Shown one piece after another: positions 24,310 to 48,193 of a stretch of DNA of 64,000 nucleotides; within the stretch, counting starts at the first letter, position 1; the number at the start of each line of letters is the position of its first letter. The DNA lies in NCBI GenBank assembly GCA_029262795.1, contig JAJCYT010000017.1, positions 46,229 through 110,228 on the forward strand, read 5' to 3'. The position numbers and the translations under genes were made by a program. Source of the stretch: Candidatus Fraserbacteria bacterium. GTDB taxonomy: Bacteria; Bipolaricaulota; Bipolaricaulia; RBG-16-55-9; JAJCYT01. The notes under the pieces were generated by a model. It saw only the letters and a list, made by a program, of their open reading frames with translations. It had not been told where the DNA came from and ran no database searches.

Positions 24310-25008
24310 TCACGGAATGAAACTGAAGTTGGCATCGCAGGTGACATGGTCGTTCATGGCGAATGAAACGACGGTGTTGATATTGCCATCCACAGGGCAA
24401 GTGGGGCCAGTCCAAGAATTAAAGATACTGCCCACTGATGCAGATGCAGTGAGTGTCACCGATTGACCTGCCGCAATCGGTGCGCTGCACGTGTTCGGCG
24501 TCAGGCAATTGATACTGCCAATGTCGCTGGTCACAGTGCCATTGCCCCCCTCCATATCCACCGTCAGCGTAAATCCAAATAGAACTTGGACAAAAGTTTC
24601 TTTAACAAAAAAGCCTTCGGTGTCTTTTGCGCTTACGGAACACGATGAGCCATTGGGGCTACAGCCCTCCCACCCTACAAAAACAAAACCGGCTGCTGGC
24701 GTGGCTGTCAGAGTTAGAGGCGTATCTCTTCTTGCAAAAGTGGATGAGAGTGAGCACCCATCGCTGGCGATGCCATTGGTAATCGTACAACTTTTGAGAC
24801 GGTCGCTTACACGGCTTTCGATAGTTACAGTGCCGCTTCCCGTCCCCTCGATGGTTAACGATAGATTGCCACAACTTACCAGGCCAAACGCTAAAAGAGC
24901 AAGAACAAATGATGCAGACTGTTTGGCCGTGCAACCTGCCAATGCTGAAATGATGGCGGCGAAAAAGATGCCAATCGAACTATACCGAATAAATTTTACA
25001 AACCTCAT
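24310..25008 (-). CDS. Lipoprotein with Bacterial-repeat (InlB-like) domains, paralogue 1
   Basis: LTATPAAGFVFVGWEGC; VTLTASASVGSIFNSWTG; lipobox-like LAGC and LVSC. Confidence 0.8.
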   Translation of the reverse strand: MRFVKFIRYSSIGIFFAAIISALAGCTAKQSASFVLALLAFGLVSCGNLSLTIEGTGSGTVTIESRVSDRLKSCTITNGIASDGCSLSSTFARRDTPLTLTATPAAGFVFVGWEGCSPNGSSCSVSAKDTEGFFVKETFVQVLFGFTLTVDMEGGNGTVTSDIGSINCLTPNTCSAPIAAGQSVTLTASASVGSIFNSWTGPTCPVDGNINTVVSFAMNDHVTCDANFSFIP

Positions 25009-25062
25009 GAACCACTCCTAGCGAACATTCATCAAACTATTGTAACACGATCCAAAGCAGCA

Positions 25063-25764
25063 TCACGGAATGAAACTGAAATTGGCATCGCAGGTGACAT
25101 GGTCGTTCATGGTGAATGAAACGACGGTGTTGATATTGCCATCCACAGGGCAAGTGGGGCCAGTCCAAGAATTAAAGATACTGCCCACTGATGCAGATGC
25201 AGTGAGTGTCACCGATTGACCTGCCGCAATCGGTGCGCTGCAAGTGTTTGGGGTCAGACAATTGATACCGCCAATGTTGCTGGTCACGGTGCCATTGCCC
25301 CCCTCCATATCCACCGTCAGCGTATATCCAAACAGGACTTGGACAAGAGTTTCTTTAACAAAAAAGCCTTCGTCATCCATTGCAGAAACGTTACAAGAGG
25401 CACTTGGAAAAGAGGCACACACCCCTGACCAACCTACAAAAACAAAACCGGCTGCCGGTGTAGCTGTCAAAAGTAAAGGCGCTTCACTTCTTGAAAACTT
25501 GAAAAAACATCCATCGTCGACGATGCCATTGGTGATTTTACAATCTTGGATCTTAGTATTTGAGTCTTGATTGATCGATACGGTGCCACTTCCCGTGCCT
25601 TCGATTGACAACGATAGATTGCCGCAACCCCCTAAAAGAACGAACACAGTAAAAAAAAGAGCGGCCCCTGCGGACTGTTTGGCCGTACAACCTGCCAATG
25701 CTGAAATGATGGTAGTGAAAAAAATGCCAATAGCACTAAAGCGAATAAATTTTTGAAAAATCAT
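25063..25764 (-). CDS. Lipoprotein with Bacterial-repeat (InlB-like) domains, paralogue 2
   Basis: Tandem duplicate of the 24310 gene; same domain pattern and N-terminus. Confidence 0.8.
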   Translation of the reverse strand: MIFQKFIRFSAIGIFFTTIISALAGCTAKQSAGAALFFTVFVLLGGCGNLSLSIEGTGSGTVSINQDSNTKIQDCKITNGIVDDGCFFKFSRSEAPLLLTATPAAGFVFVGWSGVCASFPSASCNVSAMDDEGFFVKETLVQVLFGYTLTVDMEGGNGTVTSNIGGINCLTPNTCSAPIAAGQSVTLTASASVGSIFNSWTGPTCPVDGNINTVVSFTMNDHVTCDANFSFIP

Positions 25765-30767: not shown

Positions 30768-30850
30768 AATACGTCCTCCATTTGTTTTGATAAGGGGATA
30801 ACGCCAAAGTCTAACCGAAAGCGGGGGGGGTTCACAAGTAAATTAAAAAG

Positions 30851-30900
30851 CTTCTAATCCCCCAGCCCCCTTTACATAAAGGGGCTACGATAAGACTTCG
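30851..30900 (+). repeat. Dispersed hairpin repeat, copy A
   Basis: cttctaatcccccagccccctttacataaaggggctacgataagacttcg. Confidence 0.75.
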
Positions 30901-31086
30901 TGAGCTGGTTCTATATCACGATCCAGTTTTCTTGGAGAACGGGAAAGAATATCAGAAATTAAAAACTGAAGACACTGAATTAAGCAAGCTCTAATGATCT
31001 TGGTGCCCTCTTATTGCTACAAAGTCTGGAGATAGTTTATATAGTGTATATTGTTGGATACCCGAAGGTTTTTAAAACAAAAAACT

Positions 31087-31965
31087 ATGAACATTACATG
31101 GCTTGGTGAAAACGCTTGTTCTAATATCGAAATTTCTGGCGGGAAAGCGGCCAATTTGAGTTTGCTTGCAGAACAGTTTCCCGTGCCCTCAGGCTTTTGT
31201 GTGACCACAGGCGCTTTTTCGGAAGCAATATCAGACGGCCTGAAATTTGATCAGGCAACGCTGCCTAAACAACTCATGGACGAAATTGCCAATGCATACC
31301 AACAGCTAGAAAAACAATGCAAAAGCCAGCCACTTCGCGTGGCAGTTCGATCCTCGGCTGCGGATGAAGATGGTGCGTTGGCGTCTTTTGCGGGTCAGCA
31401 CGATACATTTCTCAATGTGGTCGGGATTGATTCTGTCTACGAAGCAGTCGTCAAATGTTGGGCATCCGCTTTTACCGATCAGGCCATTGCCTATCGACAG
31501 GCACAAGGATATGAAGTGGATCAGGTTCACATCGGCGTGCTGATTCAGGAAATGGTGCCTGCTGATATGTCATTTGTGATGTTTAGCGTCAACCCACTCA
31601 CTCAGATCGCCAACGAAATGATGATCAATGTCAGTTGGGGGTTGGGAGAAAGCGTGGTCAGTGGCGAGGTCACACCCGATGTGTTTGTGATCGAAAAATC
31701 CACTGGTCAACTGCTAAATGAAACAGTGAGCGTAAAGCAACAAATGACCATTCAATCCGACGACGGCACAAAGCTTGTTCCAGTGCCGCGCCTGCTGCAA
31801 CAACGGCCCAGCCTGAATGCCGATCAAATCAAAAAAGTTTTTGAATTGGCCAAATCATTAGAACAGCAAATGGGCTGGCCCGTTGATATTGAAGGTGCCT
31901 TTCATCAGGATGAACTTTATTTGTTACAGTGCCGACCGATCACCACACTCAATCAAAAGGGGTAG
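31087..31965 (+). CDS. PEP/pyruvate-binding (ATP-grasp-like PPDK_N) domain protein
   Basis: GGKAANLSLLAEQFPVPSGFCVTTGAF; VAVRSSAADEDGALASFAGQHDTFLNV; ORF extends to 31051. Confidence 0.93.
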   Translation: MNITWLGENACSNIEISGGKAANLSLLAEQFPVPSGFCVTTGAFSEAISDGLKFDQATLPKQLMDEIANAYQQLEKQCKSQPLRVAVRSSAADEDGALASFAGQHDTFLNVVGIDSVYEAVVKCWASAFTDQAIAYRQAQGYEVDQVHIGVLIQEMVPADMSFVMFSVNPLTQIANEMMINVSWGLGESVVSGEVTPDVFVIEKSTGQLLNETVSVKQQMTIQSDDGTKLVPVPRLLQQRPSLNADQIKKVFELAKSLEQQMGWPVDIEGAFHQDELYLLQCRPITTLNQKG

Positions 31966-31970
31966 TCATT

Positions 31971-33644
31971 ATGAATACAGAAGGGCCAAAACAACTTCCC
32001 ATTCCGCCGGATTTTCCTGTTGAGTGGGGATCAAATGAAGAACAGCTATTTTGGGAAATTGATCGCGTTCATTTTATGGGGCCAATCCCTTTATTGTGTC
32101 AAGATTTTGCAGTGTTATTGAACGACGGCTTTGCTCAGGCAGCTGAAGATTTTGCCATGCCGATTCGCTGGAAAAAGAAATTCATCCACAATTTTGACTA
32201 CACGGCGGTGGTTCCCGCCGTGCCTTTGGAAGACATGGAAGCCCAAACCATGCGCTCTATGGAAAAATTTGGACCCGGCATGTTTGAAATTCAGCAAAAA
32301 TGGGAGCAAACATTCCTGCCAGAAGTAAAAGAAAAGTTAAAGTTTTGGGAATCATTCGATTTAAAAGCTGCTGACATGCCTGCCTTGCTTGATCACTTTA
32401 ATACCACAGCCAGTCATTATGTGCGCTTATGGCACATCCATTTTGCAGCTGTATTTCCTTTGTATTTTACCATCAGTCAGTTTGATGAATTTTATACGGA
32501 CCTTTTCGGTAAAGAAAATGCCCTTAAAGTTTACCACCTGCTCCAAGGGTTTGATAATAAAACATTGGAAGCCGATCGCACTTTGTGGACGTTGAGCCAG
32601 AAAGCCTTGGCCAACCCAGAGTTAAAGAATTTATTTGAAACAAAGACACCATCGGACATTATTAAAGCATTGAAAAACAATGAAATGGATCAGGAATTTT
32701 CAAAAGACTTCGATGCCTTCATGGAAGAATATGGGCAACGTGCCAATGGCTGGGTTCTCCACGAAATCAGTTGGGTCGAAGATCCCACCCCAGCAATTCA
32801 GACATTAAAAGAATATGTACAGGAACCCCCTGCTGACCCAATTGAAGAAATGAAAGTGTTGGTTGAGGAACGAGATAAACTCATTGCAGAAACCAGAGAA
32901 GCGATTCAAAGTTATCCACAACCAGTAAAAGATGAGTTTGAAGCCATGTTGCCTGCGGCCCAATTTGCAACTGTGCTTTCTGAGGATCATGGCTATTGGA
33001 TTGATTTTCGCAGCAATTACAAAATTCGCAGCGTCATCATGGAGTTGGGTCGTCGCTTCTGTGAGGCAGGGTTGTTGGATTCGCCTCAAGATATTTTCCA
33101 CGTCAGTTTGGATCAGATAAAGCAGATCGCACAGCAATGGCCTGCGAATGCTGAACAAAAATTGGGTCAGGCTGAAAAAGCTTCCTTTGAAAAAAGTTTG
33201 CAAATCACACCGCCTCCGATGGTGGGGTCGCTCCCTCCAGGTCCACCGCCGGGTGATCCGATTACCAGAACCTTTGGAAAATTCTTTGGCATGCCGGTCA
33301 GTGATGAAACGCCTACGCCAGATACCAAACTTATTCAAGGCCATCCAGGATCATCGGGAACCATTAGAGGAACAGCCAAAGTGATCCTTTCTTTAAAGGA
33401 TGCAGAGAAACTTCATGAAGGCGATATTTTGGTCACAGCGACCACTGCCCCACCATGGACGCCATTGTTTGCCACGGCTGCCGCTGTGGTGACCGATGCT
33501 GGGGGGGTGCTTTGCCACTGCGCTGTGGTTGCCAGAGAGTATGGTATTCCAGCCGTGGTTGGAACTATGTTTGCAACCTCCGTAATTCAAGATGGACAGA
33601 TGGTTGAGGTAGATGGAAACACTGGACAGGTAACGATTGTCTAA
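31971..33644 (+). CDS. PEP-utilising enzyme, mobile (phosphohistidine) domain with N-terminal unknown helical domain
   Basis: GHPGSSGTIRGTAKVI; WTPLFATAAAVVTDAGGVLCHCAVVAREYGIPAVVG. Confidence 0.92.
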   Translation: MNTEGPKQLPIPPDFPVEWGSNEEQLFWEIDRVHFMGPIPLLCQDFAVLLNDGFAQAAEDFAMPIRWKKKFIHNFDYTAVVPAVPLEDMEAQTMRSMEKFGPGMFEIQQKWEQTFLPEVKEKLKFWESFDLKAADMPALLDHFNTTASHYVRLWHIHFAAVFPLYFTISQFDEFYTDLFGKENALKVYHLLQGFDNKTLEADRTLWTLSQKALANPELKNLFETKTPSDIIKALKNNEMDQEFSKDFDAFMEEYGQRANGWVLHEISWVEDPTPAIQTLKEYVQEPPADPIEEMKVLVEERDKLIAETREAIQSYPQPVKDEFEAMLPAAQFATVLSEDHGYWIDFRSNYKIRSVIMELGRRFCEAGLLDSPQDIFHVSLDQIKQIAQQWPANAEQKLGQAEKASFEKSLQITPPPMVGSLPPGPPPGDPITRTFGKFFGMPVSDETPTPDTKLIQGHPGSSGTIRGTAKVILSLKDAEKLHEGDILVTATTAPPWTPLFATAAAVVTDAGGVLCHCAVVAREYGIPAVVGTMFATSVIQDGQMVEVDGNTGQVTIV

Positions 33645-35013
33645 ACCAAGCCACTCTATGAAAGAGGGGACCGTCCTGTTGGTTGTTGCACTTGCCACCA
33701 TGCTGGCCCCTCTGAACTCCACCATGATTGCCGTAGCTTTGCCCCGTATCACCCGAGAGTTTGGCAGTGATCTTGCCACAACGGGATGGCTGGTGACGGG
33801 CTACCTTATTGTGATGGCCTCATTACAACCCATTGCAGGAAAACTGGGTGATCGCTTTGGACGTCGCTGGTTGATTCTTGGTGGCCTCATCTATTTTGCT
33901 GTGGTGTCTGTCGGAGCAGCCGTGACCACCAGCCTGCCTTTGTTGATTTTCTTTCGTGTTCAGCAAGCCGTGGCTGGCGCACTGGCGTTACCAAACGGCA
34001 CCGCACTCATTCGTGAATTGGTACCTGCAAAACATCGAGCCAGCCGATTCGGTTTGATTGGGGCACTCATCAGTCTGGCTGCGGCAGGGGGGCCACCACT
34101 GGGAGGATTCCTGATCGAATGGGGTGGGTGGCAGGCTATTTTTTATGTGAATCTTGTCTTCATCACGCCAGCCCTCATTTTAGGTTGGCGCATCCATTCT
34201 CCAAAACCTAAAAACAACACAAAACCGCCTGTCTTCGATTTGATAGGCTCGATCTTGTTGTCATTAATTCTGGTTGGCTTGGCATTTATTGGGATTGATT
34301 ATGAACATCTTGGCGTATGGCTGACATTGGCCTTAGCAGCTTTGGTCCTTGTGATGCTGGTAGTCTTTTTTAGAAGGGAATTGAAGCATCCAGACCCAGT
34401 GATTCAGCTTCGCTTTTTTCGCTCGCCTACGTTTGTTGCCGCAGCGGGAGGCGTTTGCTTGAGCAATTTTTCCATGTACACCACATTTTTGATTATGCCT
34501 GTGCTGTTGCCCGCTAGGTTTCAATGGAGCGAAGCCGAAGTGGGTTTGGCGTTGACCACATTATTTGCATCCAACATTGCCCTTGCGCCTTTAGGCGGGC
34601 GACTGGCAGATCGCTGGGGCCGTCGCTGGCCCACAGTCATTGGCATGTTGTTCCTGGGCGTGGGGTTGCTTCCTCTGGCAATCTTTGGGGCGCAAATCGA
34701 ATTGTGGGTGTTGTTGCTAAGTCTTGTCATTGCTGGGGTGGGCATTGGCTTGTCTTCAGCGGGGTTACAAACATCTGCGGTGGAATCTGTGTCACCAAAA
34801 GATTCTGGTGTGGCATCAGGTGTGTTTTCCACCAGTCGATATTTTGGAAGCATTGTTGGTTCAAGCCTTTTGGCCGGACTGATTGGGGCCAATCAGGATC
34901 AATTTCAAGGCATAAATATTGTTTTTTTACTGGCCGTCCTCACGTCATTTGCAGCGTTGCTGCTCAGTTTCAGACTACGCGATTTTCCGGAAGACAAGGT
35001 GTTCGAGCCTTAG
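33637..35013 (+). CDS. MFS transporter (drug:H+ antiporter-like)
   Basis: LNSTMIAVALPRITREFGSDLATTGWLVTGYLI; GKLGDRFGRRWLI; multiple TM. Confidence 0.92.
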   Translation: MSKPSHSMKEGTVLLVVALATMLAPLNSTMIAVALPRITREFGSDLATTGWLVTGYLIVMASLQPIAGKLGDRFGRRWLILGGLIYFAVVSVGAAVTTSLPLLIFFRVQQAVAGALALPNGTALIRELVPAKHRASRFGLIGALISLAAAGGPPLGGFLIEWGGWQAIFYVNLVFITPALILGWRIHSPKPKNNTKPPVFDLIGSILLSLILVGLAFIGIDYEHLGVWLTLALAALVLVMLVVFFRRELKHPDPVIQLRFFRSPTFVAAAGGVCLSNFSMYTTFLIMPVLLPARFQWSEAEVGLALTTLFASNIALAPLGGRLADRWGRRWPTVIGMLFLGVGLLPLAIFGAQIELWVLLLSLVIAGVGIGLSSAGLQTSAVESVSPKDSGVASGVFSTSRYFGSIVGSSLLAGLIGANQDQFQGINIVFLLAVLTSFAALLLSFRLRDFPEDKVFEP

Positions 35014-35063: not shown

Positions 35064-35120
35064 TTAAGGCGTCTAATCCCCCAACCCCCTTTACATAAAG
35101 GGGGCACGATACGTCTGCGG
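35064..35120 (+). repeat. Dispersed hairpin repeat, copy B
   Basis: ttaaggcgtctaatcccccaaccccctttacataaagggggcacgatacgtctgcgg. Confidence 0.8.
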
Positions 35121-35219
35121 AAATCTGTGCTTCAATACGAAACGGGTTTCTATTTGGATGGTAGGTGTTGAAGTGCTTGCTTGATTTGTTTTTTTAAGTA
35201 GGCCGCATTTGAAAAAATA

Positions 35220-48133: not shown

Positions 48134-48193
48134 TTTAAGGCGTCTAATCCCCCAACCCCCTTTTCAAAAAGGGGGCACGGTTGGACTGCGAAG
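48134..48193 (+). repeat. Dispersed hairpin repeat, copy C
   Basis: tttaaggcgtctaatcccccaacccccttttcaaaaagggggcacggttggactgcg. Confidence 0.8.

Follow-up and report, generated by a model that had tools for sequence, protein, structure and literature searches.

Three genes lie head to tail across positions 31087-35013 of a 64,000-nt stretch, the window, of contig JAJCYT010000017.1 of a Candidatus Fraserbacteria bacterium (assembly GCA_029262795.1). They encode an ATP-grasp protein (A), a larger protein with a phosphohistidine domain (B) and a major facilitator superfamily (MFS) transporter (Table 1). An earlier note, made from the sequence alone, had taken the locus for a split dikinase of the rifampicin phosphotransferase (RPH)/phenylphosphate synthase type coupled to an exporter. 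Its gene calls and coordinates were correct on re-check, except that the 293 aa given for A include the stop codon. Only 5 nt separate the end of A from the start of B, and a putative Shine-Dalgarno-like sequence, AAAAGGGG, overlaps the 3′ end of A, 8 nt ahead of the B start. The note also had the MFS gene overlapping B at 33637-33644. This 8-nt overlap arises if translation starts at TTG 33637, giving 458 aa, and disappears if the ATG at 33658 is the start; the TTG start is plausible because several relatives (L076-L079, L081) have B and MFS genes that overlap by 4 or 26 nt.

Table 1. Features of the three-gene locus and associated repeats (window coordinates)
Feature	Position	Strand	Evidence
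Gene A, ATP-grasp (PPDK_N) subunit, 292 aa	31087..31965	+	Pfam PF01326, 281 bits
Shine-Dalgarno-like AAAAGGGG	31955..31962	+	direct sequence reading; putative role
Gene B, substrate-binding and phosphohistidine subunit, 557 aa	31971..33644	+	Pfam, profile and structure-model evidence
B residues 1-450, mainly helical substrate domain, equivalent of the RPH rifampin-binding domain	31971..33320	+	AlphaFold model, Foldseek, profile
B residues 338-345, motif E-D-H-x-x-x-I-D	32982..33005	+	alignment with PpsA, other catabolic-type split dikinases and RPH
B residues 455-556, swivelling phosphohistidine domain (PF00391)	33333..33638	+	Pfam and AlphaFold model
Catalytic His516 codon, counterpart of RPH-Lm His825	33516..33518	+	alignment
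MFS exporter (DHA2/EmrB-type), 451 aa from ATG	33658..35013	+	profile matches, alignment
REP-like palindromic repeat (dispersed), upstream copy	30847..30932	+	repeat search
REP-like repeat, downstream copy, same orientation, 73% identical over 86 nt	35066..35151	+	repeat search
Further REP-like repeat site	48156-48175		

A Pfam search of A matched PPDK_N alone, in keeping with the note. Its residues Lys20, Arg88, Thr107, Glu269, Gln281 and Arg283 align with RPH Lys22, Arg117, Thr136, Glu297, Gln309 and Arg311, and A shows conservation across nine homologues. The sole significant Pfam match of B was the C-terminal PEP-utilizers mobile domain (residues 482-552; PEP, phosphoenolpyruvate). The motif GGVLCHCAVVAREYGIPAVVG contains His516, and TDAGGVLCH516 satisfies the catalytic-His pattern T/SxxGGxxxH. 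An AlphaFold model of B, built with 11 sequences (pLDDT 81, pTM 0.81), was mostly helical up to about residue 410 and then passed into the swivel domain, bearing out the note's description of B as some 440 mostly helical residues followed by a mobile His domain. Foldseek matched this model nearly end to end with the RPH crystal structures 5fbu and 5hv1 (TM-score 0.71; E 1.7e-18 for 5fbu), and RPH was the only protein to match it at length. By sequence, the C-terminal 336 residues of B matched RPH at 5e-33, and a nine-sequence B profile matched RPH residues 521-865 at 3e-58. PPDK and pyruvate kinase matched the swivel domain only (about 118 residues for PPDK), and B therefore has no PEP/pyruvate TIM barrel by Pfam, AlphaFold model or Foldseek, as the note had stated when it doubted a PEP synthase.

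Phosphate transfer to rifampin by RPH requires Arg666 and Glu667, with Lys670 in the network (PMC4844700). The aligned positions in B are Ser337, Glu338 and Gly341, and where RPH reads R666-E667-Y-P-K670, B has E338-D-H340-x3-I344-D345; RPH Gln336 and Gln337 correspond to Arg32 and Val33 in a weakly aligned region. The central His and terminal Asp/Glu of this motif are common to the exporter-linked clade described below, to a Thermomicrobium-type group (PDHHFYID) and to catabolic split dikinases (E-N/D-H...E), and are absent from RPH and from the two PRK08296-like proteins aligned (L136 and L137). By this motif the predicted substrate site of B groups with the phenolic kinases and not with RPH, and its substrate is probably phenolic. 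The note had suggested an antibiotic or a phenolic compound as the substrate; the motif speaks against a rifamycin.

It is almost certain that A and B together constitute a two-component dikinase that is neither a PEP synthase nor an RPH. Two-component small-molecule dikinases have been described as a subfamily comprising HpeHI, CreHI and PpsAB; in HpeHI, the ATP-grasp part is HpeI, and HpeH provides the substrate and swivel part (Dexter et al., J Biol Chem 2025; PMC12167813). Like A and B, PpsAB (Thauera, Aromatoleum), CreHI (4-cresol) and HpeHI (hydroxyphenylethanones) carry these parts on separate chains, and they share with B the RPH-like larger chain, the catalytic His and the E-x-H motif in the substrate domain. 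B is about 26% identical to the PpsA of Azoarcus. The window system differs from this group in forming a separate clade in which A is usually ahead of B, in having an MFS pump linked in place of carboxylase and other catabolic genes, and in having no adjoining PpsC-like CBS subunit. With RPH, A and B share the order of ATP-grasp, substrate and swivel domains, the fold, the ATP-site Lys, Arg, Thr and Glu and the equivalent of His825; they differ from it by their two chains, the missing Arg666 and Lys670, an identity of about 20% and the MFS partner. An uncharacterised group, the PRK08296-type PEP-utilising proteins (NCBIfam NF006153 and related families), has a profile that matches B residues 115-557, but at 194 bits, far below the family cut-off of 578, and the plasmid-borne L136 and L137, taken as type examples, lack the E-x-H motif found in B.

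The assignment to an RPH/phenylphosphate-synthase type of split dikinase is thus upheld by the structural match, the split domains, the catalytic residues and the E-x-H motif. The note had further proposed an undescribed system. The split architecture belongs to the subfamily described in PMC12167813, whereas the exporter-linked clade and the unit it forms appear to be undescribed; our literature searches, which covered open-licence papers, turned up no earlier account of a dikinase joined to an exporter.

The best NCBIfam profile of the MFS protein was TIGR00711 (EmrB/DHA2 permease), at 208.3 bits against a cut-off of 230.2. It resembles DHA2/EmrB drug exporters in this profile match, in motif A and in a sequence like the antiporter motif C (GGPPLGG), but falls under the subfamily cut-off and carries PLNSTM (here PLNSTMI) in transmembrane helix 1 (TM1) in place of the usual LDxT. 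All 19 linked pumps that could be read in TM1 carry PLNSTM[IL], whereas their paralogues mostly carry LDxT. Cassette-type pumps scored 440-677 bits in the eight genomes checked, where no other MFS protein exceeded 304; across all loci, complete linked pumps scored 328-677 bits and two copies cut by contig ends 262 and 302. On these sequence features the cassette pump is a distinct MFS subfamily.

Counting the window, 24 loci from 23 genomes have B adjoining this one MFS subfamily, and A is present in 23 of the 24; it is not in the available stretch of the remaining locus (L105). The proteins of a trio from an Actinomycetes metagenome-assembled genome (L041), found by a scan of genome contigs, are 48% (A), 38-40% (B) and 49-52% (MFS) identical to those of the window. 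Among 399 sampled genomes of that class, eight hold the trio, L041's own included. A sample of its phylum added three more genomes with B; two have a linked MFS gene, one of them in two copies, and in the third B lies on a 3.6-kb contig on which no MFS gene was seen. In the phylum of Thermomicrobium, B was found in 22 of 301 sampled genomes (24 loci) at 1e-100, with this type of MFS gene alongside in 12 loci. All 100 available genomes of the window's phylum were searched and the other two groups are larger, so at least three phyla hold the unit. The gene order is A-B-MFS, B-A-MFS (L120, L122) or MFS-B-A (L117), and in L126 and L104 A and B are fused into one chain (812-846 aa), encoded beside a convergent MFS gene; these fused homologues are ATP-grasp plus B and not PEP synthases. 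Repeated rearrangement with continued association argues for a shared function of A, B and MFS. Since 3-16 MFS genes per genome matched the profile in the eight genomes, chance would place one among the nearest genes at no more than a few per cent of loci, and the three-gene linkage is conserved beyond chance. None of the three outcomes by which the note would have been refuted was thus observed: a barrel match of the middle domain, homologues fused as a PEP synthase, or a want of conserved linkage. What surrounds the trio varies from one locus to the next (among others flagellar, glycerol kinase, patatin, glycine cleavage, NADH dehydrogenase and transketolase genes), and nothing besides the trio recurs, close relatives excepted.

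In a maximum-likelihood tree of 41 B sequences, the deep branches of which are weakly resolved, the window B fell within an exporter-rich clade of 26 (support 89/95), 20 of which have a linked MFS gene. Four catabolic-type plasmid sequences, the Thermomicrobium type and RPH formed groups apart from it (100/100 each). The distance matrices of B and MFS were correlated (r = 0.82), and none of 10,000 permutations reached as high a value. The nearest relative of the window B, L114 (47% identity), has no linked pump; its genome carries a cassette-type pump of 474 bits on another contig. Two further clade members without the cassette pump or a nearby A have an unrelated MFS gene adjoining B (L119:10199-11482; L124:2578-3864), which gives the impression of a pump exchange. 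Searched at 1e-15, the 100 available genomes of the window's own phylum yielded no other full-length B, which makes horizontal acquisition of the unit likely. Foreign base composition was not seen, the cassette having 42-51% G+C like its surroundings. Phage-type integrases adjoin two cassettes, and an actinobacterial genome (G802) holds two A-B-MFS copies on separate contigs (L129, L130), one of them beside a phage-type integrase.

Taken together, we read the three genes as one unit in which a dikinase is paired with an exporter of its own and which most likely serves detoxification or resistance, to which we give a probability of roughly 0.55. A self-contained, apparently mobile kinase and antiporter that travel without degradation genes are best read in this way. 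By homology to PpsAB, HpeHI and RPH, A would bind ATP-Mg; His516 on the swivel domain of B would attack the β-phosphate, with release of AMP and Pi, and the phosphorylated swivel would then turn to the helical pocket of B and there phosphorylate a hydrophobic compound on a hydroxyl group, probably a phenolic one. The MFS pump may then clear the phosphorylated product, or leftover free compound, from the cell. The note's proposal of small-molecule phosphorylation tied to an exporter is thus what homology would predict, and the conserved linkage agrees with it. A pump-tied, separate clade that stands alone in at least three phyla points to a role other than degrading simple phenols, probably in defence against toxic small molecules. 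Only tentatively do we extend this to a horizontally spreading split RPH-like dikinase that, with its dedicated exporter, gives environmental bacteria resistance to phenolic or polyketide natural products. If so, the class of natural products concerned would be one for which no such inactivation is yet known, and the kinase-plus-pump form of resistance would be distinct from that of RPH. The E-x-H motif of B and PLNSTM in the pump provide signatures for finding further members, and the unit offers a test case for what many uncharacterised RPH-like enzymes act on.

Several points weigh against detoxification. We infer the direction of transport from the MFS family and motif C only, and the B/MFS correlation also partly reflects shared descent. 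All characterised two-component relatives are catabolic and start aromatic breakdown (PMC12167813, PMC9618137), and FAA-hydrolase, glyoxalase-family and mandelate-racemase-family genes adjoin L114, which fits aromatic catabolism and not resistance. These last two points, together with the 338-345 motif that B has in common with PpsA, would suit an importing MFS protein whose phenolic substrate is phosphorylated and trapped by A and B for breakdown encoded elsewhere, as proposed for HpeHI. We regard such a catabolic entry as rather unlikely, although it is the most serious competitor of detoxification, because degradation genes do not travel with the trio in the cassette loci retrieved and the pump falls into the DHA2 type of drug antiporters and has a sequence resembling motif C. 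The split dikinases retrieved from catabolic contexts lack such a pump. At an Azoarcus KH32C locus found by similarity, phenylphosphate synthase adjoins phenylphosphate carboxylase genes, and a Rhizobium locus with a split dikinase contains biotin carrier, biotin carboxylase, HAD hydrolase and acyl-CoA ligase genes, by which it seems to resemble the Hpe cluster of PMC9618137. The window locus has no carboxylase or aromatic-degradation genes, and its genome has no UbiD and hence no phenylphosphate carboxylase, for which reason a phenylphosphate synthase working with a carboxylase was rejected.

A biosynthetic role, in which A and B phosphorylate or activate a natural-product intermediate (cf. 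the PigC and RedH ligases of the superfamily) and the MFS protein exports the product, would account for the PigC and RedH profile matches of A and B and for an O-methyltransferase gene between B and A in L115; it is improbable, since the loci read have no conserved biosynthetic neighbours and their unrelated contexts suggest a stand-alone function. An exporter beside a resistance kinase would also be sensible for a split rifamycin phosphotransferase, and B does match the RPH fold and domain order, but it is not a rifamycin kinase because the essential Arg666 is missing; with Lys670 missing as well, this reading is largely refuted and has very little probability left. That A and B are the two parts of a PEP synthase or PPDK that serves gluconeogenesis might be suggested by their being the only dikinase-type genes found in the window genome (4 Mb, estimated 92% complete): no further PPDK_N or PEP-utilizers domain was found in it, and so no PEP synthase, PPDK or enzyme I of the PEP-dependent phosphotransferase system was seen. 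The fold of B, its want of a PEP/pyruvate barrel and the two ATP-type PEP carboxykinases of the genome rule this out for practical purposes. A known anti-phage system was also rejected, no PADLOC-DB profile matching the genes.

Two copies of a repeat resembling repetitive extragenic palindromic (REP) elements bracket the three-gene unit in the same orientation. The repeat, CTAATCCCCCA-CCCCCTTTACATAAAGGGG, has 35 genome copies within 3 mismatches. An insertion bounded by these copies was considered and set aside, since at a density of 35 dispersed copies roughly one pair would be expected to lie within 4.3 kb somewhere in the genome, and the bracketing is suggestive at most.

Other split dikinases were encountered in different settings. 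The Thermomicrobium-type B clade (L033, L042, L047, L050, L128) sits in catabolic-looking clusters, that of T. roseum containing molybdopterin hydroxylase, FAA hydrolase and cyclase genes, and is apparently another uncharacterised two-component dikinase group. On Deinococcus radiodurans plasmid CP1 (L038, positions 725-2801), a short split dikinase lies a few kb from Qat anti-phage genes; its B has 408 aa and is without the N-terminal 150 residues. Elsewhere in the window, positions 24310-25764 hold two tandem, nearly repeated genes for probable secreted proteins or lipoproteins (232 and 233 aa), the first of which contains a divergent InlB B-repeat domain.

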